Source of the DNA: Archaeoglobales archaeon
GTDB taxonomy: Archaea; Halobacteriota; Archaeoglobi; Archaeoglobales; Archaeoglobaceae
Reading direction: 5' to 3'
NCBI GenBank assembly: GCA_011605865.1
Contig: JAAOZI010000044.1
Span: 1-41,387, forward strand
DNA length: 41,387 nucleotides
Part shown: in pieces, positions 16,957 to 40,596 of the stretch
How positions within the stretch are numbered: the stretch's first letter is position 1
How the letters are laid out: each line of letters starts with the position of its first letter
Made by a program: the position numbers and the translations under genes
Notes under the pieces: generated by a model
What the model was told of the DNA's origin: nothing
The model's input: the letters and a program-made list of their open reading frames with translations, nothing else
Databases searched by the model: none

Positions 16957-17913
16957 TTACTCAAGCTCTTGTAATAGAGATTCATCTGGGCTTTTATCAT
17001 TTCTCAACCTCACAAATACAGGGGCGCGTAACTTCAAATCGCTCGTAACTTCCAAGTATTCCACCTCGCATACATAAACAGGCTTACACCAGTGAACCCC
17101 TTTCGCCCTAATTTCAAAAAATGGCTGGTTTGTTTCTATTTCCAAAAGTTTTTTATAAAACCATTCAATAAATTCGGAAGTAAATCCCGTCCCAACTTGT
17201 CCTACATGTACATAAGAATCTCCGGATTTCAACGCCAAAATCAGAGAACCGAAAAATCCCTCCCTTTTTCCTTCCCCTTCCAACCATCCGACAATTATGC
17301 AGTCTATCGTTTTTCTTTTCTTCATCTTTATCCAAAACTTCGACCTTTTTCCGATTAAGTAAGGGCTTTCTTTTTTCTTTGCAATTATTCCTTCAATTCC
17401 GAGCTTTACAGCCTTTTCATAAAGATCTTCCCCCCTTTCTTCGATAAAGTCTGTTAGAGCGATTCTCTTTGAATTCAAGGCAATCCTTGATAAAATTTCC
17501 TTCCTCTTTTCTATCTTCTCAGAAGTCAGCCATCCCAAGGATTCAGTGTATAGGACATCAAAGACAAAATAATTCGCGGGATACATTTTTGACAAAATTC
17601 CTATCTTCAGCTTGCTGTCTACATGTTCCCTTTTCTGCAACAGGTAAAATGATGGCAACTTCTCCTCGAAGACGACGATCTCCCCATCCAAAATTGCGCT
17701 TTCTTTAACAAAATCGAGCAGATCCAGCTCGGGATATCTGTATGCTATCTCCATCAGTCTGCGATTTTGAATTCTTATCCTTTCATTCTTGAGATCGACA
17801 AATGCTATTGCCCTAGTTCCATCCCATTTTATTTCGTATATATATTCGGGACTACTAAAGGGTTTTCCTCTAACTGCAAGCATTGGACTTATTCTTTCTT
17901 CAAACCAGCTCAT
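16957..17913 (-). CDS. ATP-dependent DNA ligase of the NHEJ (LigD-ligase) type
   Basis: 318 residues, only the nucleotidyltransferase and OB domains. The adenylation lysine is in YEIKWDGTRA (Lys29), with ILDGEIVVF, a VFDVLY motif, EGIIAKKKESPY and WIKMKKRKTIDCIIVGW as the later ligase motifs. The C-terminus matches the LigD OB fold. There is no polymerase or phosphoesterase domain attached. Its ATG overlaps the Ku stop as ATGA (17910-17913), so ligase and Ku are translated together, a minimal two-gene end-joining system. A second, replicative-type ligase is at 26117-27775. Confidence 0.92.
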   Translation of the reverse strand: MSWFEERISPMLAVRGKPFSSPEYIYEIKWDGTRAIAFVDLKNERIRIQNRRLMEIAYRYPELDLLDFVKESAILDGEIVVFEEKLPSFYLLQKREHVDSKLKIGILSKMYPANYFVFDVLYTESLGWLTSEKIEKRKEILSRIALNSKRIALTDFIEERGEDLYEKAVKLGIEGIIAKKKESPYLIGKRSKFWIKMKKRKTIDCIIVGWLEGEGKREGFFGSLILALKSGDSYVHVGQVGTGFTSEFIEWFYKKLLEIETNQPFFEIRAKGVHWCKPVYVCEVEYLEVTSDLKLRAPVFVRLRNDKSPDESLLQELE

Positions 17914-18674
17914 TTTACAGCTTCAAGACTTGCCTTCAAAGCCTCCATAAGAGATTTTGCTGACGGAACTTCTTCAGCAGCGGTTATTATCTCCCTTCCA
18001 GCAAGCTTCGCATCTATTAGTTTAAGCAATGCTTCTTTATACTCATTTCTAAATTCTTCAAGATTTAAAGGCTTCTTCATAGCCATTATCAGCTTTTTTG
18101 CCAAATCCAATTCTTCTTCGCTAATTTCAACATCAATTCCCCAATTTGGGATTTCTTTTGGATTTCTTATCTCGTCGACATAATGCAGACCCGCCATTAC
18201 AATCCCACCATTAAACCATTTAAGAGCTACTATTCCCTCCCTTCCCCGCATTCCAATCTTTCCAATTCCCATCAAATTCGTTGCCCTCATCGCTTCCCTG
18301 AGAAGAGCATAAGCCTTCTCTCCACCCCTATCGGGAACGACATAATAAAAACTGCTATAATATATTTCCCTAAGCTCAATTGGATCGAAGAATCTCTTTA
18401 TTTCGATGCTTTTTACGCTCTTTAATGGTATTTTTTCCAAATCCTCCTCCGTTAGTATTACATACTCGTTTTTCGCAATCTCGTAACCTCTAACGATTTC
18501 TTCGTCCGAAACGTCTTCTTTACACTTCTCACAGAATTTCCTATACCTTATTTTCCCTCCATCTTTTGAATGAAGGAGAGAAAATCGCACTTCTTTCGGA
18601 TTGGTAGCATTATAAGCCTTCACAGGTATGGAAACCAGCCCGAAACTTATCGAACCTTTCCAGACTGCTCTCAT
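17910..18674 (-). CDS. ku: Prokaryotic Ku DNA end-binding protein
   Basis: About 254 residues from ATG 18674 (the frame is open 13 codons further, but MRAVWKGSISFG is the canonical Ku start). Ku homodimers encircle broken DNA ends and recruit the ligase. FGLVSIPVKAYNAT, a HSKDGGKIRYRKFCEKC segment with paired cysteines, and the beta-barrel core YVVPDRGGEKAYALLREAM are typical. Length matches bacterial Ku cores without long tails. It leads the two-gene operon with the ligase. Ku is found in only a limited number of archaea, so this pair is a notable trait of the lineage. Confidence 0.93.
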   Translation of the reverse strand: MRAVWKGSISFGLVSIPVKAYNATNPKEVRFSLLHSKDGGKIRYRKFCEKCKEDVSDEEIVRGYEIAKNEYVILTEEDLEKIPLKSVKSIEIKRFFDPIELREIYYSSFYYVVPDRGGEKAYALLREAMRATNLMGIGKIGMRGREGIVALKWFNGGIVMAGLHYVDEIRNPKEIPNWGIDVEISEEELDLAKKLIMAMKKPLNLEEFRNEYKEALLKLIDAKLAGREIITAAEEVPSAKSLMEALKASLEAVK

Positions 18675-18804
18675 AATGTTACTATACAAGAGTGAATTAA
18701 TTTCTTTCGTCAAGTATTTTAATAATTTATTTAATATTTATTAATGATATTTTAAGTTTTAGTCTAGAATAACCAGAATACGTTTTTGATGAACTAGACA
18801 AAAG

Positions 18805-27795: not shown

Positions 27796-28575
27796 CTAAT
27801 TAACTTTTTCCCAACTTTTCATCGCCAACACAGCAGCTCCAAGTGCTCCAACGATCTGCGGTTCCTCCGGAATCTTTATTGTCAACCCTAGTTTCTCCTC
27901 AAGTGCCTTCTTCACACCCAAGTTCTTCGCCACACCGCCTGTAAGTACAACGTCTTCCCTTACACCAACTCTGCTGGCCAAGCCAACGATCCTGCTTGCA
28001 ATCGCGTCGCAGATACCGGCAACTATATTCTCAATTTCCTCTCCCGATGAGATATAGCTTATAACTTCTGATTCCGCAAAGACTGTACAGGTAGAAGAGA
28101 TCGTTATTTTCTTTTTTGCTCTTAATGCAATTTCTCCGAGCTGCTCCAATTTCAAATTCAACGCATTCGCCATTACTTCGAGAAACCTTCCAGTTCCGGC
28201 CGAACATTTGTCATTCATGGCAAAACTTAAAACTCTCCCTTCTTCGACTGCTATGACTTTACTATCCTGTCCGCCTATGTCAATTACAGTTCTAACAGTC
28301 GGAATCAAAAAATGCGCCCCCACTGCATGGCAGGTTATTTCAGTTACAGCTCTTTCGGCAAATCTAACCTGATATCTACCATAACCAGTTGAAAAAACTT
28401 TTGAAACGTCTCTTCCCTCCAAACCAGCAATTTTTAAAGCCTCTTGAAAAACCTCCAGTGCCGTCTCTTCCAGATTTGGTTTCACTTTCTGAATGCTATA
28501 AGCCAAAATCTCGGAGTCCTTAATCACCACACACTTTGCTGTGAGGGAACCTATATCTATTCCCGCGAAAATCAT
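27796..28575 (-). CDS. 2-Hydroxyacyl-CoA dehydratase activase (BadF/BcrA/HgdC ATPase)
   Basis: 259 residues. This ASKHA ATPase carries a [4Fe-4S] cluster and drives a low-potential electron into its partner at the cost of ATP. AGIDIGSLTAK (4-14), DIGGQDSK (99-106), the cluster cysteines Cys124 (NDKCSAGTG) and Cys163 (SSTCTVFAESE) and LTGGVAKN are all visible. Its start overlaps the end of the next upstream subunit gene by four bases. The operon order is D-like, B-like, activase. Whether the system dehydrates a hydroxyacyl-CoA or reduces an aromatic CoA ester cannot be read. Confidence 0.92.
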   Translation of the reverse strand: MIFAGIDIGSLTAKCVVIKDSEILAYSIQKVKPNLEETALEVFQEALKIAGLEGRDVSKVFSTGYGRYQVRFAERAVTEITCHAVGAHFLIPTVRTVIDIGGQDSKVIAVEEGRVLSFAMNDKCSAGTGRFLEVMANALNLKLEQLGEIALRAKKKITISSTCTVFAESEVISYISSGEEIENIVAGICDAIASRIVGLASRVGVREDVVLTGGVAKNLGVKKALEEKLGLTIKIPEEPQIVGALGAAVLAMKSWEKVN

Positions 28576-29738
28576 AAGCTCTCGAGAAAGGCCTCAAGCC
28601 TCGTAAGAACTTGCGCTTCGCTGAATGCTCTCTCGTCTACCATATCTGCCTCTATTATAACCGAGGGGACACTAAGTTTCTTTTGAATTTCATACTGGCC
28701 AAATGAATAGGGCTTGCAGCTTCTATTGGAGTGCATGACAACACCATCAACCCCATAGAAATCTATTAGTCCTTCTATTATTTCCACCATTCTATCGATT
28801 CCGATGTTCAGATACGATAAAGTATAAACTTCTGCGAGACTTGATATTACATCAGAACTTTTGACAGTCCCAAAACCGGTCCAAGCGTTCGTATAAGTGT
28901 CAGCAACAAGACAAGCGTTTCTCTTTTCAAAGAATTCTCCAAGCCACCTGAGACGGTACCAAATAGGAATGTTGTCCCACAGCAACCTTATTCTTTCGTT
29001 CTCTATCGCAGAAACTCCATTTTTAACCCTATCTTCCAATTCCCCTTTCATTTCTCTATAAAAGTTTACAGCATGCTCCGTCCCTCGAAGGCAGACTATT
29101 GGAGCCATGTTTATAAAAGCATCAAAACACGTCATCGGTGAAGGTCTGTTTTTTGCCATTCTCAGACATTCACCGTAAAGGTTAACGGCCTCTACCGATT
29201 TGGCTGCAACTTCTCTCAGTTTTGAATCATCCAAAGGATTACCCGTTAATTTTTCCACAAACTTTATAAAATCATACAACTGCTCCTCAACATAAAGTAT
29301 ATGGGATTCCTTCAACTCCTTCCTTATAAAGGGCATATCGAGGACAAAAAGTGGAACCTTGAAGATTCTGCTCAAGACTTCATACCACTTCACAACAGTA
29401 TTGCATATATTGTTACAGGCAAACAGAAAATTTGGTTTGGGCAATCCGCCAATTGGGCTCGTTCCAGCAAACACACAACCTATATCGCATCTAGCATACG
29501 AGCAGAGATCCCGAGAAAATCCTCTTTTTTCGGCAAATTCGGAAAAGTGCGAGCCCAACTTCGCAGCTCCGATTAGCGCCCCATGGTTTTCTGGATAAAC
29601 TGGATATACGTCCATTGCATAAAGAATCTCAACAGGAGCTCCGCTCGTTATCCAAGCCCTGAATTCTGCGGTATGGCCAAGCATGTAATAACCAGCCATC
29701 AAATCTCTCATTCTTTCGGATATCCTCAACCTTTTCAT
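28572..29738 (-). CDS. 2-Hydroxyacyl-CoA dehydratase/benzoyl-CoA reductase-like subunit (HgdB-like)
   Basis: 388 residues. The block GFSRDLCSYARCDIGC (about residues 74-90) is the family's Cys-bearing loop, and IIEADMVDERAFS near the end is the CoA-enzyme subunit signature. Such subunits hold a [4Fe-4S] or double-cubane cluster. It overlaps both neighbours by four bases, in the order 30706-29735, 29738-28572, 28575-27796, so the three are translated as one operon. Confidence 0.88.
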   Translation of the reverse strand: MKRLRISERMRDLMAGYYMLGHTAEFRAWITSGAPVEILYAMDVYPVYPENHGALIGAAKLGSHFSEFAEKRGFSRDLCSYARCDIGCVFAGTSPIGGLPKPNFLFACNNICNTVVKWYEVLSRIFKVPLFVLDMPFIRKELKESHILYVEEQLYDFIKFVEKLTGNPLDDSKLREVAAKSVEAVNLYGECLRMAKNRPSPMTCFDAFINMAPIVCLRGTEHAVNFYREMKGELEDRVKNGVSAIENERIRLLWDNIPIWYRLRWLGEFFEKRNACLVADTYTNAWTGFGTVKSSDVISSLAEVYTLSYLNIGIDRMVEIIEGLIDFYGVDGVVMHSNRSCKPYSFGQYEIQKKLSVPSVIIEADMVDERAFSEAQVLTRLEAFLESL

Positions 29739-30706
29739 TCGATCGCCTCCCTTAAAGCCTCAATTCTTGTTCTTATTTGTTCGGTGGATACCAAGGGAAA
29801 CTCTATCTCGATCAAAGCAACTTTCTTTCCCAATTCTTCAAGTTTTTCCTTCAACTGCGGAAAGTCAAAAAAGTGCGGCTCGCAGAATTTTACAAGCAAA
29901 AAGACTACAGCATCACAATCTCTTGCCAAATTTAAAACGTATTCAAATCTGTAATCCTCACTGTAATGCTTTGTGGGACAGGGTGCCTTGTGAAAATATT
30001 TCTCAGCAATATACTTTAAAGCGCTATCCAAATCTCTGGGTTCGAATTCCGGATATCTGAAATCAAAAAATCTCCTCCCCGTACACAAATCATCCTTAAC
30101 AACAAAACCGGACTTTCTAAATAACTCGTAGACTTCCGGATACGGGCAAACGCTTCCAGTTATTAAAACTCTCCTTCCCGACTCTTTCTTCGCTCCCTCC
30201 AGTTTTTTATCAACAAGTTCTATTGCCTTTCCAACTTCAAGCTGCTGAACTTTTGTTGCAACCTCATAATCAGCGTTGATTTCAAAAAGCTTTTTCATTT
30301 TTTCCTCAAGTATTCTGTAGAGCCTAATACTCTCCAAAATCTTTTCAAAGCTTATTTCCCCTCCCCAGTCCTCTAGGACCGCTAAAAAATCTTTTAGCTC
30401 GCGCATATAATACTCAACATTCCCTATTTTTGTCGGAAATTCGATATTGTACGCCCTTTTTCCAAGAAATTCCAATATGTCAGTTAATCGCATCAGAGTG
30501 TCGCAACTTCTTGTTACCACGAAACCGCAAAAATCGTTACTGAGAGCTTCTTCGATTGCTCCTCTCACCTGGGAGCAGGAATAGCTTTGTATATAACTTG
30601 ACGCCATACATATAGGTCTATTCGTTGCAAATATCCTGTAGGGTAGAAATCCGGCAGAATGAATCAATTCCTTCGGCGTGAAACTACAAAAGTAGCCAAT
30701 TTTCAC
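29735..30706 (-). CDS. 2-Hydroxyacyl-CoA dehydratase-type second subunit
   Basis: 323 residues. It begins MKIGYFCSFTPKELIHSAG, the motif of the HgdA/BcrB-type subunits, and has Cys in SYSCSQVRGAIEEA, VTRSCDTLMR, VCPYPEVY, LCTGRRFFD and FCEPHFFDFPQLKE. It is distinct from the downstream subunit, so the enzyme is probably a heterodimer reduced by the activase. It is the first gene of the operon. Upstream is alba in the same direction, after a 38-base gap, so the promoter may lie in that gap. Confidence 0.85.
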   Translation of the reverse strand: MKIGYFCSFTPKELIHSAGFLPYRIFATNRPICMASSYIQSYSCSQVRGAIEEALSNDFCGFVVTRSCDTLMRLTDILEFLGKRAYNIEFPTKIGNVEYYMRELKDFLAVLEDWGGEISFEKILESIRLYRILEEKMKKLFEINADYEVATKVQQLEVGKAIELVDKKLEGAKKESGRRVLITGSVCPYPEVYELFRKSGFVVKDDLCTGRRFFDFRYPEFEPRDLDSALKYIAEKYFHKAPCPTKHYSEDYRFEYVLNLARDCDAVVFLLVKFCEPHFFDFPQLKEKLEELGKKVALIEIEFPLVSTEQIRTRIEALREAIE

Positions 30707-32604: not shown

Positions 32605-33588
32605 ATGAAAGTCGAGGACTTCATAAGACTTGCAAATTCTGGAGGGGGAGATTTAACAAAACTCTGCGAAATCGGAGAAGATCTTCTAAAAAACGCAAAT
32701 GATCATGAAAGAGGCAGAATTCTTGGAACACTCGGAAATTTGAACTATATGTTAGGAAATCTAGAAAAAGCTGAAAAATTTTACCGAGAAGCAATGGAAA
32801 TCTATCTGAAACTTTCCCAGGAAGATGAAAGCCTGATAAGATACGTTGCAGGTTGTCTTTTCAACCTCGGAAATCTGTACCATAGCTCCGGAAAACTTTT
32901 TGAGGCAAAAGAATGCTACATCGATGCTTTGAAAACAATGGAATTCTTTGAAGATGAAAGATTGAAGGCAGAAACACTATCTGCTCTTGGTTTGCTTGAA
33001 ATAAAGCTGGGAAACTATATCGATGCAGAAAAACTGTTAAAAGAAGCTATTTTAATTAGAAAAGACGTTAAAGATTTAAACAACTTAGCTGTTGCACTAC
33101 TAAAGCTTGGAAAGAAAGAGGAGGCGAGAGAAGCGCTTAAAGAGGCTTTGCTCATCGACAGAAACCTATCGATAATTCAAAACTTAATTGCACTGGGTGA
33201 CCTAGATGTTGAAGATTTTGATGAATCCGAATTCCCACTAGAAATCAGGGTGAAATTCAAATATCTCAAAGCAAAAAAGCTCGAGAAGGAAGGGAAAGAT
33301 GCCAGCAAGGAGTTTTTTGAAACCGGTTGCTTGGCCTTCCTGGCAATTAGGAACGGTTTAAGTAGCATAAACTACATGCACTGTTTTGACAAAGTTGCTG
33401 AGAGCAATTCCGAGCTTTCCAAAACAGCAGAAGAACTAAAAAAGATCATCCTCCGCTTTTATTACGGGGCGGGTATAGAGGTAGAAAATCTGGAACTTTT
33501 TCAAAGGATAAAAAACCGCAATTTTGGGTCAGGAGTTCTATCTGCCGTTCTTCAAAGGATTGCTGAGGATATCAAAGGACTTCTTTAG
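32605..33588 (+). CDS. TPR repeat protein
   Basis: About 327 residues from ATG 32605; a TTG six codons earlier is less likely. Several tetratricopeptide repeats occupy the first 200 residues (for example NLNYMLGNLEKAEKFYREAM, NLGNLYHSSGKLFEAKECY, LGLLEIKLGNYIDAEKLL). The C-terminal third is helical without a clear motif. It should be a protein-binding scaffold; the partner is unknown. It is divergent from leuA over about 50 bases and overlaps the HIT gene tail to tail by 51 bases. Confidence 0.85.
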   Translation: MKVEDFIRLANSGGGDLTKLCEIGEDLLKNANDHERGRILGTLGNLNYMLGNLEKAEKFYREAMEIYLKLSQEDESLIRYVAGCLFNLGNLYHSSGKLFEAKECYIDALKTMEFFEDERLKAETLSALGLLEIKLGNYIDAEKLLKEAILIRKDVKDLNNLAVALLKLGKKEEAREALKEALLIDRNLSIIQNLIALGDLDVEDFDESEFPLEIRVKFKYLKAKKLEKEGKDASKEFFETGCLAFLAIRNGLSSINYMHCFDKVAESNSELSKTAEELKKIILRFYYGAGIEVENLELFQRIKNRNFGSGVLSAVLQRIAEDIKGLL

Positions 33589-34041
33589 TTTATCATAAGT
33601 CTCCTCAAGCGCTTCTGGAACTATCTGGACGTCTGCAAGAACGGGCATAAAAGAGGTATCTCCATTCCATCTTGGAACTATATGAACATGCAGATGTTCG
33701 GCAATACCTGCACCGGCAACTTTTCCAATGTTTATGCCAACATTGAAGCCATCTGGATTCATACAGTTTCTTATGGCTTTTATCGAGAGAGTCGTAAGTT
33801 TCATTATCTCCAAAAGCTCATCCTCCTCCAGATCTTCGAGGTTTGCAACATGACGATTTGGACAAACCATCACATGACCCGGATTATATGGATTCCTGTT
33901 CATGATCACAAAACTCTTCTCGGCCTTGTATACAACGAGAGCGGCTTTTTCGTCGCTCTTTAAAGCACTGCAGAAAACACAATTTTTGGGCTTTGGAGCA
34001 AGGATATACCTTATCCGCCAAGGAGCAAATATCCTCTCCAT
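33538..34041 (-). CDS. HIT family nucleotide hydrolase or phosphorylase
   Basis: 167 residues. The histidine triad HLHVHIV is at 116-122, with the zinc pair CVFC (21-24) and NRNPYNPGHVMVCPNRH in front. The length and the RIFAPWRIRYI start fit the AP4A-hydrolase/phosphorylase-like HIT group. It acts on dinucleotide or adenylylated substrates. It starts one base after the TrmB-type regulator's stop and is probably co-transcribed with it. Confidence 0.9.
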   Translation of the reverse strand: MERIFAPWRIRYILAPKPKNCVFCSALKSDEKAALVVYKAEKSFVIMNRNPYNPGHVMVCPNRHVANLEDLEEDELLEIMKLTTLSIKAIRNCMNPDGFNVGINIGKVAGAGIAEHLHVHIVPRWNGDTSFMPVLADVQIVPEALEETYDKLKKSFDILSNPLKNGR

Positions 34042-34042
34042 A

Positions 34043-34354
34043 TTAGGCGTTACCCAGCATTTTTTCTATTTTCAGGAATTCCTCCAGTATCTGGGTCTTT
34101 ATTTTTTTAACAACTTCCCTTGGTTCTTCCGCCGCATACCTGTAGCCAAGCCATCTTTCCTCGACGAGCTTCCTTTTCACTATTCCCCTTTTTGTCAGCT
34201 CCTTAAGCCTTTCCCTTACGAACCTCGTAGATAGACCAAGCTCATTTGCTATCTCTCTTACCCCTAGCTCCCTGTTAAGGAGAAGTGAGTATATCTTAAC
34301 ATCAGAGGGTTTTAGTTTGAGCCTTTCAAAGACCTTCACTAGCTCGCCCAGCAT
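34043..34354 (-). CDS. TrmB-type winged-helix transcriptional regulator
   Basis: 103 residues, a stand-alone winged helix: KLKPSDVKIYSLLLNRELGVREIANELGLSTRFVRERLKELTKRGIVKRK. It is the DNA-binding part only, without the sugar-sensing TrmBL domain. It is divergent from the first radical SAM gene (34423), 68 bases apart, and in an operon with the HIT gene, so it is a likely regulator of the radical SAM pair. Confidence 0.82.
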   Translation of the reverse strand: MLGELVKVFERLKLKPSDVKIYSLLLNRELGVREIANELGLSTRFVRERLKELTKRGIVKRKLVEERWLGYRYAAEEPREVVKKIKTQILEEFLKIEKMLGNA

Positions 34355-34422
34355 TTATCCACCTCCAATGTGGGAAGTTTTTAGATCACAATCTATTTAA
34401 ACATTGCGGAAGTATAATTACT

Positions 34423-35811
34423 ATGATAGATAAAATAGCCATGTTTTCATACTTCCTCAATCCTCTCACCAGACTTGGTCTGAAACAAATTTCCTGTTAT
34501 TGCGAGGACTGCAAAAAGAACAGATTAGAAGTTGCACTTGAGCTTTTTGTTGGGAGTAGAAAGGATGCTTGCTGGAAGTGCAAAACTGCAGAAAAAATCA
34601 TAGAACCTGTTCTTTTAAAGGGAGCCGAAAGTTTCAACGCAACGGTTGAAGAAATGAAAATGAAATTCAAGGACCCATACTGGCGAAAGGGTCTTGCAAG
34701 TGTGATAAAAGGTCTTGCAGAGTTTGGCCTCCGAAAACCCTTTGTTCCGGGTGCACCTTTCCAGGTTGTATGGGATATAACCTATGCCTGTAATCTCAAA
34801 TGCAAACACTGCTACGCAACTGCGGGAAAAGCTTTAGAGAACGAATTAACAACAGAAGAAGCATTAAGAACGATAGATGCCCTAGATCGGCTTGGTGTAA
34901 CGATAATAGCATTCTCTGGCGGAGAGCCGCTAATAAGAAGGGATATATACGACCTGACCAGTTATGCTGCAGAGAAAGGGATTTACGTTGCAATTGCAAC
35001 AAATGGAACACTGATAAGCGAAGAAGTTGCTAAAAAACTGAAGGAAAGCGGTGTAAGCTATCTTCAGATAAGTCTTGATGGAACAAAAGAGACACATGAG
35101 GCTTTTCGTGGCATTAAAGGGATATTCAACAAGACTCTAGAGGGTATAAAAAATGCGGTGAAATATGGTTTCTTCGTAAATGTTTCGATGACAGTTACAA
35201 AATACAATTACGCGGAAGTCGAGGAAGTAATAAAAATTTGCGAAAAACTCGGAGTAAACTGGTTCATGCACTACAATTTCATCCCCACAGGAAGGGGAAG
35301 GGATATAGTTGAAGCGGATATAACCCCGGAGCAGAGAGAGAAGCTGTTGAGAATGCTTTATGAAAGGAATTTCAAGTCAAACATAAGCCTTCTCTCCACT
35401 GCTCCACAGTTTGCAAGGATTGCCCTGCAATGTAATGGCGGTATAATTCCTACCCATTTCTACAACGTTAATGCTGGAGAAAGGTTTAAACAGCTCGCTG
35501 AATTTATCGGTGGCTGTGGAGCTGGAAGATTTTACTTTGCAATAAAGGCAAACGGAGATATAACCCCATGCGTATTCTTCCCGCTCGTAGTTGGGAATGT
35601 AAGAACTGACGATCTCGAAGAGCTTTGGAAAAAGAATAAAGTTTTTGAGGATCTAAGAAATAAGGATAAGCTTGAAGGTTGTGGGGATTGCAACTACCGA
35701 TATGTCTGCGGCGGTTGCAGGGCAAGAGCTTACAACTATTTCGGGGACTATCTAAAGCCAGATCCGGGTTGTATAAGGAACAAGGCCCTCTGGGCAGAAT
35801 TGGTAACATGA
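34423..35811 (+). CDS. Radical SAM enzyme with SPASM-like C-terminus
   Basis: 462 residues. The radical SAM cluster motif CNLKCKHC is at residues 123-130, followed by SGGEPLIRRDI and SLDGTKETHE. The N-terminal 60 residues hold five further cysteines (CYCEDC and CWKC), a probable zinc or cluster site not found in ordinary PqqE-like enzymes. The C-terminus has CGAGRFYFAIKANGDITPC, GCGDCNYRYVCGGCRARAYN and a final DPGC, as in SPASM proteins that hold auxiliary [4Fe-4S] clusters. Substrate unknown; peptide or cofactor maturation is the usual role. The next gene starts in its stop codon (ATGA). Confidence 0.85.
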   Translation: MIDKIAMFSYFLNPLTRLGLKQISCYCEDCKKNRLEVALELFVGSRKDACWKCKTAEKIIEPVLLKGAESFNATVEEMKMKFKDPYWRKGLASVIKGLAEFGLRKPFVPGAPFQVVWDITYACNLKCKHCYATAGKALENELTTEEALRTIDALDRLGVTIIAFSGGEPLIRRDIYDLTSYAAEKGIYVAIATNGTLISEEVAKKLKESGVSYLQISLDGTKETHEAFRGIKGIFNKTLEGIKNAVKYGFFVNVSMTVTKYNYAEVEEVIKICEKLGVNWFMHYNFIPTGRGRDIVEADITPEQREKLLRMLYERNFKSNISLLSTAPQFARIALQCNGGIIPTHFYNVNAGERFKQLAEFIGGCGAGRFYFAIKANGDITPCVFFPLVVGNVRTDDLEELWKKNKVFEDLRNKDKLEGCGDCNYRYVCGGCRARAYNYFGDYLKPDPGCIRNKALWAELVT

Positions 35812-37166
35812 TAACCCTTGTAAATCCGAGTGCAAAAGTTGAAGTCGTAAAAACACTTGAAATATCCACTCCTCCCCTAGGTCTAGGCTATCTCGCATCC
35901 GTCCTCCGTGAAAGGGGATTCAAGGTCAGAATAATCGACGATCTTGTGGAAAATCTGAATTTTTCCGATTTTTTGAAAAAGATAAAGGATTCGTTGATCG
36001 TGGGAATTACATCAACTACTCCAACCTTTAAATCAGCGCTTGAATACGCAAAAAAGATAAAAAAGGCTTTTCCAGACATATTTGTAATACTCGGTGGAGT
36101 TCACGTTTCTTTTGAACCCGAAAAAGCGCTTAAAAACGAGTTCGTAGATGCCGTCTGCATAGGAGAGGGGGAGAGAACAATTGTTGAACTTGCGGAAAGG
36201 GTAGAATCCGGAAGGGATCTCGAAGATGTGAAGGGAATATATTTCAAAAAAGAGGATAAAATAGTTAAGAATCCGCCAAGAGAATTCATTCAAGATCTGG
36301 ATTCCATTCCATTTCCGGCATTCGATCTGATGCCACTGGAAAAGTATTCCCTTCTCGGAGAGAGGCTCGAAGTTTTTCCCATGATAACATCAAGGGGCTG
36401 TCCATTCTCCTGCAGATATTGTAGTTCTTCGCTGTTCATGGGTAGAAGATTTCGTGCAAGGAGTGCAAAAAATGTTGCAGATGAGATCGAATGGCTTGTA
36501 AACGATTTTAATGCAAGACACATAGCATTTGGTGATGACACGTTTACCTTGAGCAAGAAAAGAGTTGCGGAAATCTGCAAGGAGATAAAAAGCAGAAAGC
36601 TTGATATCACATGGAGCTGTTCTTCAAGGATAGACACCATAGACAGAGAACTGCTTGAAATCATGAAATCTGCAGGCTGTTCAGCAATTTACTACGGAAT
36701 AGAATCGGCGAGCGATAGAATTCTAAATTATTACAACAAAAGATTGTCGCTTGAAAAAGCAAAAGAAGTCATTAAAATCACAAAAAAGTTAAAAATATCT
36801 GCAATTTGCTCCTTTATAATCGGAGCTCCAGTTGAGACAAAAAAAGAGATGGAAGAGACACTAAAATTTGCGATAAAACTCGATCCAGATTATGCTCAAT
36901 TCTCAATACTGACCCCCTATCCGGGAACTGAAATTTACAGGGAAGCGAAAGAGAAGAATCTTCTATTAACCGAGGACTATGAAAACTACACAGCGGGGAA
37001 ACCTGTAATAAAAACATTAATCCCTGCTGAAGAGCTTGCGAGGTTTCTGAGAAAATGTTATCTCAAATTCTATCTCAGACCGAAATTCATATTGCGAGAA
37101 ATAAAAAAGGGCCATCTACGCGTGATTTTTAAAGTGATGAGAAAGGCTTTTCAAACTAAAGCTTAA
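35808..37166 (+). CDS. B12-binding radical SAM protein, class B-like
   Basis: About 452 residues from ATG 35808, which overlaps the stop of the first radical SAM gene; a longer upstream frame lies in that gene and is not real. The N-terminal 150 residues form a cobalamin-binding-like Rossmann domain (TPPLGLGYLASVLRERGF, VILGGVHVSFEPE), and the radical SAM CPFSCRYC is at 198-205, then GDDTFTLS and YGIESASD. Such proteins (class B methylases, lipid-modifying enzymes) act on unactivated carbon. The substrate is unknown. It ends a few bases before the convergent small membrane protein. Confidence 0.85.
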   Translation: MITLVNPSAKVEVVKTLEISTPPLGLGYLASVLRERGFKVRIIDDLVENLNFSDFLKKIKDSLIVGITSTTPTFKSALEYAKKIKKAFPDIFVILGGVHVSFEPEKALKNEFVDAVCIGEGERTIVELAERVESGRDLEDVKGIYFKKEDKIVKNPPREFIQDLDSIPFPAFDLMPLEKYSLLGERLEVFPMITSRGCPFSCRYCSSSLFMGRRFRARSAKNVADEIEWLVNDFNARHIAFGDDTFTLSKKRVAEICKEIKSRKLDITWSCSSRIDTIDRELLEIMKSAGCSAIYYGIESASDRILNYYNKRLSLEKAKEVIKITKKLKISAICSFIIGAPVETKKEMEETLKFAIKLDPDYAQFSILTPYPGTEIYREAKEKNLLLTEDYENYTAGKPVIKTLIPAEELARFLRKCYLKFYLRPKFILREIKKGHLRVIFKVMRKAFQTKA

Positions 37167-37353
37167 TCCTTGATATTCGAATTGCCAGATAAGTTGCCAG
37201 GGAACAAAGAACTGCAAACAAAAATGATTTTGAGCCAAATCCAGACAGATAGAAAGCAATGAAGCTAATAAAAAAGACTGAAACCACAGTTGAACTAACG
37301 GATATCCTCCAGCTGAGCTCCTTTATTCTCTCCTTATTGCCCCCTTCCTGCAT
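37156..37353 (-). CDS. Small membrane protein, two helices
   Basis: 65 residues with two hydrophobic segments (VVSVFFISFIAFYLSGF and SFLFAVLCSLATYLAI) and basic ends. I do not recognise a family. The frame overlaps the end of iorA by 31 bases and the radical SAM end by 11, so the start is uncertain; the ATG at 37353 has no clear ribosome-binding site. The transmembrane layout and the fit between the two flanking genes make it plausible but not secure. Confidence 0.5.
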   Translation of the reverse strand: MQEGGNKERIKELSWRISVSSTVVSVFFISFIAFYLSGFGSKSFLFAVLCSLATYLAIRISRIKL

Positions 37354-39170
37354 ATCTGGCTACAAACACCGCAACCAACGCAGACTTCCTGATCTATCCT
37401 AACCCTCCCATCATAGATCAGGGCAGGGCATGAGAATGTGTTTATGCATTCCATACACAGATCGCAGTCCTGAGTTACCTTCAGCGGAATTATTCTTCCT
37501 TTCCTTCTTCTCTCTCTAGCCCAGAGTATCGCACAAGGCTGTCTAGCGATTACAACCGCAACCCCTGGATGGGCTAAGGCTCTTTTGAGGGTTTCAATTG
37601 TCCTTTTAATGTTGTAGGGGTTCACAACTTCCACAAAATCGACTCCGCAAGCTTTAACTATATCTTCTATGATTACCTTCTTCCCCATCTCCCCACAAGC
37701 TCTCACCCCTGTTCCCGGATGCGGCTGATGCCCTGTCATACCCGTTGTTGAGTTGTCTAGGATTACAAGCACGAATTTTGCCCCATTGTATACGGCATTT
37801 ATCAAAGCCGGAATTCCAGCATGAAGAAAAGTTGAATCGCCAATTGTAGCGATTATCTTTTCTTTTAAAACATGTGCCAAACCATTGGAAACCCCGACAC
37901 TGGCACCCATGCATATTGTTATGTCCACCGCCTCGAATGGTTTGTTTATGCCGAGAGTGTAGCATCCTATATCGCTCGGCAGGCAAGCATTTCCGAGCTC
38001 ATTGACAACCCTTCGAATTGCGTAGAAAGTAGCTGTATGCGGACAACCGGCGCACAAGACGGGTGGTCTTGGTGGGGCCAATTTCTGGAGCTCGTCCTTT
38101 AAAGGATCTGATTCGAAGCTGGGATTCAATCCAAGTACCTTGGCAATTCCGGCCTCTACTATTGTCACGTTATATTCATAGTCCATAGGGAAATATCCGT
38201 TCATTTTTCCGTACGTCTTTATACCCATGGCTCTCAGGTGAAGCTCGATAAATGGATCAACTTCCTCAACAACAATCGCCGCGTCGAGATCTGAGATGAA
38301 CTTTTCCACAAGCATTTCCGGCACCGGATGAGCAGAAGAGAGTTTCAAAACCGGTAATTTTAAGTTTAAATTTTCCAAAGCCTCCTTAGCATAACTATAG
38401 CCCAGACCACAGGCAACTATTCCAATTTTTCCATCCCCATCAACTATCCAATTCATCTCCCAGTCGTTGAAGAATTTCTCAACGTCTGAGAGTTTTCTGT
38501 TCAGAATCTTTTTGAGCTTCCTCGCATTTGCTGGCAAAACAACATCCGTATCTGGACTTCTTTTCCAGCTTACCTTTTCCAGCCTCTTCTCGGGCAATTT
38601 TCCAAGAGTGACAATCCCGCTGGCATGACTAAGCCTTGTGTAGCTTCTCAGAATCACCGGAATCGAAAATTTTTCCGAAATTTGGAAACACTGCTTAGTT
38701 ATCTCCTTCAATTCAGCAACGTTCGAAGCTTCTACAACAGGAATCTTAGCAATCTTGCCATACCATCTGTTATCCTGCTCGTTCTGACTGCTATGCATCG
38801 TCGGATCATCGGCCGAAACCAATACAAGTCCACCCCTTGAACCAACATAGGCGAAACTCAAAAGAGCATCGGAAGCTACATTTACACCAACATGTTTCAT
38901 GCAAGCCATTCCCCTTTTCCCAGCCAATGAAGCTCCAATGGCAACTTCAAGCGCAACTTTTTCGTTCGTGGAGTATTCAACGTGGAACTCCAATTTACCC
39001 TTGAGCAAAGGACAGGCATTGCTAAGAGTGTCCAAAATTTCCGAAGATGGCGTTCCCGGATAAGCTGCACATACATCTACCCCTACTTCAAGTGCTCCCC
39101 GAGCAATTGCTTCGTTCCCAAGCAGAAAGACTTTTTCCCCAACGCTGTCCTTTATGACGTCCTTAAGCAT
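37323..39170 (-). CDS. iorA: Indolepyruvate:ferredoxin oxidoreductase, alpha subunit
   Basis: 615 residues. In order: a 2-oxoacid-binding domain (AAYPGTPSSEIL), a long pyrimidine/TPP region with VLCAGCPHTATFYAIRR and a thiamine-binding GDSTFLHAG, and a C-terminal 2x[4Fe-4S] ferredoxin domain (CDLCMECINTFSC and CVGCGVCSQICRK). It oxidises indolepyruvate and phenylpyruvate with CoA and ferredoxin in aromatic amino acid catabolism. The beta subunit is 21 kb away at 15455-16051, not adjacent as in many archaea. Confidence 0.95.
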   Translation of the reverse strand: MLKDVIKDSVGEKVFLLGNEAIARGALEVGVDVCAAYPGTPSSEILDTLSNACPLLKGKLEFHVEYSTNEKVALEVAIGASLAGKRGMACMKHVGVNVASDALLSFAYVGSRGGLVLVSADDPTMHSSQNEQDNRWYGKIAKIPVVEASNVAELKEITKQCFQISEKFSIPVILRSYTRLSHASGIVTLGKLPEKRLEKVSWKRSPDTDVVLPANARKLKKILNRKLSDVEKFFNDWEMNWIVDGDGKIGIVACGLGYSYAKEALENLNLKLPVLKLSSAHPVPEMLVEKFISDLDAAIVVEEVDPFIELHLRAMGIKTYGKMNGYFPMDYEYNVTIVEAGIAKVLGLNPSFESDPLKDELQKLAPPRPPVLCAGCPHTATFYAIRRVVNELGNACLPSDIGCYTLGINKPFEAVDITICMGASVGVSNGLAHVLKEKIIATIGDSTFLHAGIPALINAVYNGAKFVLVILDNSTTGMTGHQPHPGTGVRACGEMGKKVIIEDIVKACGVDFVEVVNPYNIKRTIETLKRALAHPGVAVVIARQPCAILWARERRRKGRIIPLKVTQDCDLCMECINTFSCPALIYDGRVRIDQEVCVGCGVCSQICRKGAIRRE

Positions 39171-39274: not shown

Positions 39275-39339
39275 CCCGAACTAGGCAAATTAAAGAAGGC
39301 TAAAGCCATAGCTCACAGCAAATGAAAAGGGCTGAAAAT

Positions 39340-40596
39340 ATGTTCGATCTAGTAATAGAGAACGGCATTTGCTTCATTTCTGGAAATTTCGTTGAAAGCA
39401 ATATAGGGATAATAAACAACAAAATAGCCTATGTTGGAAAGGAATCGATTAAAGGAAGGGAAAAAATAAATGCACGGGGCTGTTTAGTTCTTCCAGGATT
39501 CTTCAACGCCCATACGCATTCCGCAATGACAATATTGAGAGGTTACGCAGAAGGCTTACCGCTTGACAAATGGTTGGATAAAGTTTGGAAGATTGAGGCA
39601 ATGCTAGATGAAAGATCTATTTACATCGCATCCATGCTTGCCTGCATTGAAATGCTGAAAAACGGAATAACCTGCTTCTCCGATATGTACATACATATGG
39701 ACAGCGTTGCAAGAGCTGTAGAAGAGACAGGGATTAGAGCTGTACTGGGTTACGGAATGGCGGATCGTGGAAGTGAGGAGAGAATGGAAAAAGAGCTCAA
39801 AATCGCATTAGATTTTATAAAAAATTGTGAGAACAAGGAGAGAATCAAACCGATGCTAACGCCCCATGCAATCTACACCTGCTCACCAGAATTTCTTTCA
39901 AGAATAAATGATCTTGCAAACGAAATGGGGCTCATAAAGCATATCCATGCTTCCGAGACCTTATGGGAAGTTAAGGAGTCCAAGAAAAAATTCGGTAAAA
40001 CCCCCATAAAGCTTCTGGATGATATAAAGTTCCTGGATCAGAGAACTGTTCTAGCCCACTGCGTTTGGCTCAGCGATGACGAAATAAACCTGATCGCTAA
40101 TAGGAGGACAAGTGTTGCGCATTGTCCGTCGAGCAACTTGAAACTGTCTTCCGGAATTGCAAAGATTGCTGAAATGACTGAAAATGGTGTAAATGTTGCA
40201 ATTGGAACTGATGGGGCAGCTAGCAACAATATGCTGAACATTTTCAGCGAAATTAGACTTTCCGCTTTACTTCAGCAACTCAGAAAAAAGTTCTTGAGTC
40301 CTGTGAAATACTTGGAAATGGCAACAAAAAACGGCTACAGAGCATATGGAATCGATGGCGGAGAAATAGAGAAAGGAAAAATTGCGGACATAATAGTAGT
40401 AGAACCGAAAATTCACCAAATGCCAATTTACAACTATGCGAATTCTCTTGTTTTTTCCTCCAACGGTTGTGAAGTGAGAGATGTAATCGTTAACGGGAAG
40501 ATAGTTGTCGAGGATAGGACTCCAATAAATGTTGATGATGAGAAAGTGGTGGATCAAATTTCAAAACTGAAAGAAAAAATACTGGGAAAAGCTTAA
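39340..40596 (+). CDS. SAH/MTA/5'-deoxyadenosine deaminase-like amidohydrolase
   Basis: About 418 residues from ATG 39340 (ATG 39322 would add six). The metal-dependent amidohydrolase fold is shown by PGFFNAHTHSAMTILRG, the HXH metal ligands, KHIHASETLWE, LAHCVWLSDDE, VAHCPSSN and IGTDGAASNN. This set is that of the adenosine-type deaminases acting on S-adenosylhomocysteine, methylthioadenosine or 5'-deoxyadenosine in archaea. The last two are products of radical SAM chemistry, which suits the neighbouring enzymes, but this link is only by context. The choice between the substrates cannot be read. Confidence 0.88.
   Translation: MFDLVIENGICFISGNFVESNIGIINNKIAYVGKESIKGREKINARGCLVLPGFFNAHTHSAMTILRGYAEGLPLDKWLDKVWKIEAMLDERSIYIASMLACIEMLKNGITCFSDMYIHMDSVARAVEETGIRAVLGYGMADRGSEERMEKELKIALDFIKNCENKERIKPMLTPHAIYTCSPEFLSRINDLANEMGLIKHIHASETLWEVKESKKKFGKTPIKLLDDIKFLDQRTVLAHCVWLSDDEINLIANRRTSVAHCPSSNLKLSSGIAKIAEMTENGVNVAIGTDGAASNNMLNIFSEIRLSALLQQLRKKFLSPVKYLEMATKNGYRAYGIDGGEIEKGKIADIIVVEPKIHQMPIYNYANSLVFSSNGCEVRDVIVNGKIVVEDRTPINVDDEKVVDQISKLKEKILGKA

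Follow-up and report, generated by a model that had tools for sequence, protein, structure and literature searches.

A coupled pair of radical SAM genes as a probable GMGT synthase and methylase operon in an Archaeoglobales archaeon

The closest described system is the GMGT synthase Gms of Methanothermococcus okinawensis (METOK_RS04425), which bridges two GDGT tails and yielded GMGT-0 in vitro as well as in a methanogen host (Li et al. 2024, PMC11186832). Gms consists of a six-helix N-terminal domain, a radical SAM domain, a bridging region, and a C-terminal SPASM domain, modeled on SuiB as template, and the residues C123, C127, C370, C372, C438, F326, N351, S334, and E346 were named in the enzyme (PMC11186832). 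The same authors set Gms apart from AhbC and AhbD and defined its homologs by a length of more than 420 aa, an identity above 30%, and a BLASTP E-value below 1e-50 (PMC11186832).

Methylated H-GDGTs occur in nature. Garcia et al. (PNAS, 2024) are said to have described Gmm, a radical SAM enzyme that works with Gms and adds methyl groups to the bridged lipid, and reportedly found that Archaeoglobus makes GMGTs. Among other enzymes of archaeal lipids, Tes is a radical SAM protein that forms C-C bonds on lipid tails, and GrsA and GrsB are B12-type radical SAM proteins that act on GDGT.

Locus anatomy and the identity of gene 1

The window analyzed here, a stretch of 41,387 nucleotides from a heat-loving Archaeoglobales archaeon, contains two coupled radical SAM genes (gene 1 and gene 2) in the following setting.

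33538-34041, minus strand: HIT-domain hydrolase (PF01230)
34043-34354, minus strand: TrmB-like winged-helix protein, probable gms regulator (PF01978)
34355-34422: divergent intergenic region of 68 bp, with a TATA-like TATTTAAA at 34394-34401
34363-34376: degenerate copy of the palindrome TTCCTACATAGGAA seen in relatives, a putative operator, weak here
34423-35811, plus strand: gene 1, SPASM radical SAM protein of 462 aa (Pfam PF04055 and PF13186)
34495-34581, plus strand: extra N-terminal Cys of gene 1, CYCEDC...CWKC, codons 25-53, a possible metal site
34789-34812, plus strand: CX3CX2C radical SAM motif CNLKCKHC of gene 1, codons 123-130, numbered as C123/C127 of M. okinawensis Gms
35515-35772, plus strand: SPASM domain of gene 1 (PF13186, residues 365-424), containing the seven Cys of the auxiliary clusters (C365 to C450)
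35808-37166, plus strand: gene 2, B12-binding radical SAM protein of 452 aa (PF02310 and PF04055)
35847-36191, plus strand: B12-binding domain of gene 2 (PF02310, E 4e-24)
36399-36422, plus strand: radical SAM motif CPFSCRYC of gene 2, its Cys invariant in relatives
37323-39170, strand opposite to the deaminase-like gene: indolepyruvate ferredoxin oxidoreductase (IOR alpha) gene, between the pair and the deaminase-like gene
39322-40596, plus strand: SAH/5'-dAdo deaminase-like gene

The ATG of gene 2 overlaps the stop codon of gene 1 (ATGA), the start of the TrmB-like gene lies 68 bases from that of gene 1 in divergent orientation, the HIT gene is found one base past the TrmB-like gene, and the deaminase-like gene is located about 2.2 kb downstream of the pair. 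An earlier note on this DNA had described an operon of the TrmB-like and HIT genes, the 68-base divergence, the assignment of SPASM and B12 radical SAM proteins, and the ATGA coupling, all of which were confirmed in the sequence. Elsewhere in the window, reading by eye on the minus strand located Ku-like and ATP-dependent LigD-like ligase genes side by side at 16957-18713, a bacterial-type end-joining couple in an archaeon, and a 2-hydroxyacyl-CoA dehydratase-like cluster at 27796-30706, made up of two dehydratase-like subunits and an ATPase resembling an activator.

We read the pair as a probable membrane-lipid modification operon comprising Gms, a GMGT methylase, and a TrmB-like regulator, with a probability of about 0.82. 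The Gms reaction was demonstrated in relatives; for the present locus, we infer the activities of both copies from homology, domain anatomy, tree position, the presence of Tes, and conserved pairing.

The sequence of M. okinawensis Gms was pinned by residue numbering, in which eight of the nine published positions matched and E346 did not. The names of other relatives (A. fulgidus, T. guaymasensis, A. profundus, P. yayanosii, Geoglobus, Ferroglobus, and others) are mostly presumed assignments. The gene 1 protein shared 52% identity with M. okinawensis Gms, 49% with the presumed T. guaymasensis ortholog, and 75% with that of the presumed A. fulgidus; the identity of 49-52% to the first two, a strong tblastn match, spanned nearly the full length. 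Therefore, with 462 aa, 52% identity, and AhbD-type sequences outside its clade, gene 1 falls within the published definition of Gms homologs. In a FastTree phylogeny of 163 sequences, gene 1 and M. okinawensis Gms formed a clade with a support of 0.98, outside which the presumed T. guaymasensis ortholog was placed, and gene 1 fell inside the bracket formed by these two proteins; AhbD-type proteins lay outside the gms family, whose deep nodes were weak (0.64).

The AlphaFold model of gene 1 (pLDDT 87) showed six N-terminal helices (residues 4-11, 14-23, 34-43, 51-70, 75-81, and 85-101) followed by the radical SAM and SPASM domains, in the order described for Gms and with a poorly modeled hairpin loop. 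The best PDB match of this model was SuiB. With Gms of M. okinawensis and the presumed T. guaymasensis, gene 1 shares the six-helix N-terminus, CX3CX2C at position 123, the bridging helices, and the SPASM Cys. Residues for three predicted [4Fe-4S] clusters are present in gene 1, namely the radical SAM cluster (C123, C127, and C130), AuxI, and AuxII, and the aligned auxiliary-cluster Cys (C365, C383, C420, C423, C429, C432, and C450) are invariant or nearly so across the family. M. okinawensis Gms has GCGCG at C370/C372, whereas gene 1 has GCGAG without a Cys equivalent to C372, as does the presumed T. guaymasensis ortholog.

Gene 1 also differs from Gms by its extra N-terminal Cys pairs (C25, C27, C30, C50, and C53). 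The added motif noted previously is really there; comparable Cys were present in some gms relatives and missing from others, indicating that the reaction does not require them. As judged by this comparison, the Gms N-terminal domain bears the motif as a variable decoration, in only part of the family.

In addition, the genome encodes Tes (756 bits with NF045702, whose cut-off is 450), which gene 1 matches over the radical SAM core only. We did not find gms in the presumed P. yayanosii genome, in agreement with Li et al. (PMC11186832). Gene 1 looks nameless because NCBIfam has no model for it and its score with the closest one, AhbD, is well under the cut-off. By alignment, domain anatomy, and phylogeny, gene 1 is identified as an ortholog of the GMGT synthase Gms.

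Gene 2 and its pairing with gms

Gene 2 has the layout of cobalamin-dependent radical SAM enzymes of the class B methylase type, with an N-terminal B12 Rossmann domain and a radical SAM barrel. Its model (pLDDT 88.9) best matched AprD4, MgmA, TsrM, CysS, OxsB, and TokK in the PDB; the top match, AprD4, is a dehydratase, and MgmA, TsrM, CysS, and TokK are methylases. Like Gmm as it is reportedly described, gene 2 is a Gms-associated radical SAM protein, being a conserved gms neighbor with a methylase-like fold, although some gene 2 homologs occur without gms. Architecture, context, and the reported description of Gmm suggest that this methylase is the most likely identity of gene 2.

A neighborhood search over 295 genomes of the phylum identified 25 adjacent pairs of gms-type and gene 2 genes in 24 of them; most pairs share a strand and are separated by short gaps, and the pair was also found in loci of Thermococci, Desulfurococcales, Thermoproteus, and other groups. 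Gene 2 directly beside gms-type genes recurs in Archaeoglobi, Thermococci, Thermoproteota, and methanogens, and the pairing is far beyond chance. Of the 115 Thermococci genomes, about half had a gms-family match, compared with all 14 of those with a close gene 2 homolog (counts that ignore phylogeny). No close gene 2 was found in the Methanococci examined, including the presumed M. okinawensis genome, though gms was present, and the gms locus of the presumed A. fulgidus lacked both gene 2 and HIT. The co-occurrence of the two radical SAM genes expected in the earlier note was thus borne out, and its guess of a biosynthetic unit was right.

Additionally, a divergent type of the gms family (approximately 40% identity, frames of 530-620 codons) was common in Thermococci, such as the presumed P. 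horikoshii and T. gammatolerans, and gms-type genes were observed in bacterial MAGs of Bryobacteraceae, an uncultured bacterium, Latescibacterota, and a planctomycete.

Grs-like neighbors provide a lipid context for the pair. In the presumed T. guaymasensis, the order is a Grs-like gene, gms, and gene 2 directly downstream of gms, and in the presumed A. profundus, a Grs-like gene comes after gene 2. It is possible, though unlikely, that gene 2 works on these lipids but, in place of methylating them, cyclizes or rearranges GMGT as a cobalamin-dependent radical SAM enzyme (Grs- or HpnJ-like), given that BchE and HpnJ, neither of them a methylase, are the named NCBIfam models closest to it, with scores under the cut-offs, and that Grs proteins, adjacent in these two genomes, are B12-type radical SAM enzymes as well. 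However, Grs proteins form a family of their own: in the presumed S. acidocaldarius genome, Grs-like matches were located at 0.2 and 1.35 Mb, presumably GrsB and GrsA, respectively, and the only gene 2 match was at 1.55 Mb. Because of these distinct loci, gene 2 was rejected as a Grs protein, and the occurrence of a Grs-like gene and gene 2 within a single cluster speaks for distinct functions. The genome of our archaeon likewise encodes a distinct Grs-like B12 radical SAM protein (contig C43:3864-5165), so ring-bearing GDGT or GMGT are possible.

The presumed Geoglobus and Ferroglobus genomes carried a gene 2 homolog (55-59%) and no gms was found in them, which is a new point; gene 2 may therefore also methylate plain GDGT. 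The Geoglobus homolog adjoins aspartokinase or RNA polymerase subunit genes. Several Archaeoglobi genomes harbored more than one gms paralog, up to three, and together with gene 2 homologs lacking gms, these results indicate that specificity could differ. Gene 1 might accordingly be imagined as a paralog that bridges another lipid or position, e.g., archaeol or a different GDGT isomer, and the presumed A. profundus type is indeed nearer to M. okinawensis Gms than the type in the window. We regard this as improbable, since the presumed A. fulgidus carries the window type as its gms-type gene, the residues and domains of gene 1 match Gms, and Garcia et al. reportedly found GMGT production in Archaeoglobus.

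We also considered gene 1 as a heme-pathway enzyme resembling AhbC, AhbD, or NirJ, which with a BchE-like partner would make the pair a tetrapyrrole pathway. The best NCBIfam scores point in this direction (AhbD 305 and NirJ2 285 bits for gene 1, BchE 269 bits for gene 2), but they are far under the curated cut-offs of 500, 500, and 481, respectively. Moreover, AhbD-type proteins have no N-terminal helical domain and branch apart from the family in the phylogeny, the genome has another SPASM protein related to AhbD, and Li et al. separated Gms from AhbC and AhbD (PMC11186832). This reading is very improbable and was rejected on the sub-cut-off scores, the other domain layout, and the separate tree position. 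A peptide product (RiPP) made by SPASM and B12 radical SAM maturases is the least credible and was rejected, for although SPASM enzymes are often peptide maturases and SuiB is the top fold match of gene 1, the 68-bp gap and the ATGA junction leave no space for a precursor gene, and the neighbors in relatives include lipid enzymes (Grs-like) and not obvious peptidases or exporters.

The earlier note had recognized no known pathway and had suggested an undescribed biosynthetic system. That part is not supported, as gene 1 is an ortholog of a proven Gms and gene 2 fits a GMGT methylase; the pair is a good new example of chemistry described since 2024, not an unknown pathway.

The probable TrmB-like regulator and neighboring genes

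The divergent TrmB-like gene lies beside gms in many Archaeoglobi, including the presumed A. fulgidus, supporting the regulator link beyond the window. Between the two genes, the palindrome TTCCTACATAGGAA was found with 0-1 mismatches in four loci (the presumed A. fulgidus and three others); the copy in the window has 5 mismatches and was not significant (shuffle p 0.21). The locus of the presumed A. fulgidus (L262, 6885-8707) has no gene 2, and an almost perfect palindrome lies between its divergent TrmB-like and gms genes. The TrmB-like protein is probably a local regulator of gms, and its link to gms is a new point.

Among the loci examined, linkage of the HIT gene was seen only in the genus of the window, and the HIT hydrolase, which is probably unrelated to the lipid enzymes, was rejected as a member of the unit. 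The deaminase-like gene, previously thought to clear radical SAM by-products, was likewise rejected as part of the unit, because its linkage was kept in only one relative examined and the IOR alpha gene intervenes on the opposite strand.

Proposed pathway and its meaning

In the proposed pathway, Tes, encoded elsewhere in the genome, would make the GDGT substrate. Gene 1, with its radical SAM cluster and the two auxiliary [4Fe-4S] clusters of its SPASM domain, would abstract hydrogens from two GDGT biphytanyl tails and join them by a C-C bridge, producing GMGT (H-shaped GDGT). Gene 2, a putative cobalamin-dependent radical SAM C-methylase, would then add methyl branches to the bridged lipid in the role of Gmm, and the divergent TrmB-like protein would regulate the locus.

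A wider proposal, which we offer tentatively and consider rather doubtful, is that Archaeoglobi control membrane cross-linking via the divergent TrmB-like regulator on a TTCCTACATAGGAA-type operator, and that gene 2 is a broader tetraether methylase, which in Geoglobus and Ferroglobus might act on GDGT that has not been cross-linked, so that methylation and cross-linking would be uncoupled.

Work on GMGTs treats them as stabilizers of membranes and as markers of temperature and oxygen-poor settings. The gene pair, its distribution, and the candidate regulator may allow genomes to be read for makers of plain, bridged, and methylated bridged lipids. In addition, the candidate TrmB-like regulator would provide a testable switch for the timing of membrane cross-linking in hyperthermophiles.
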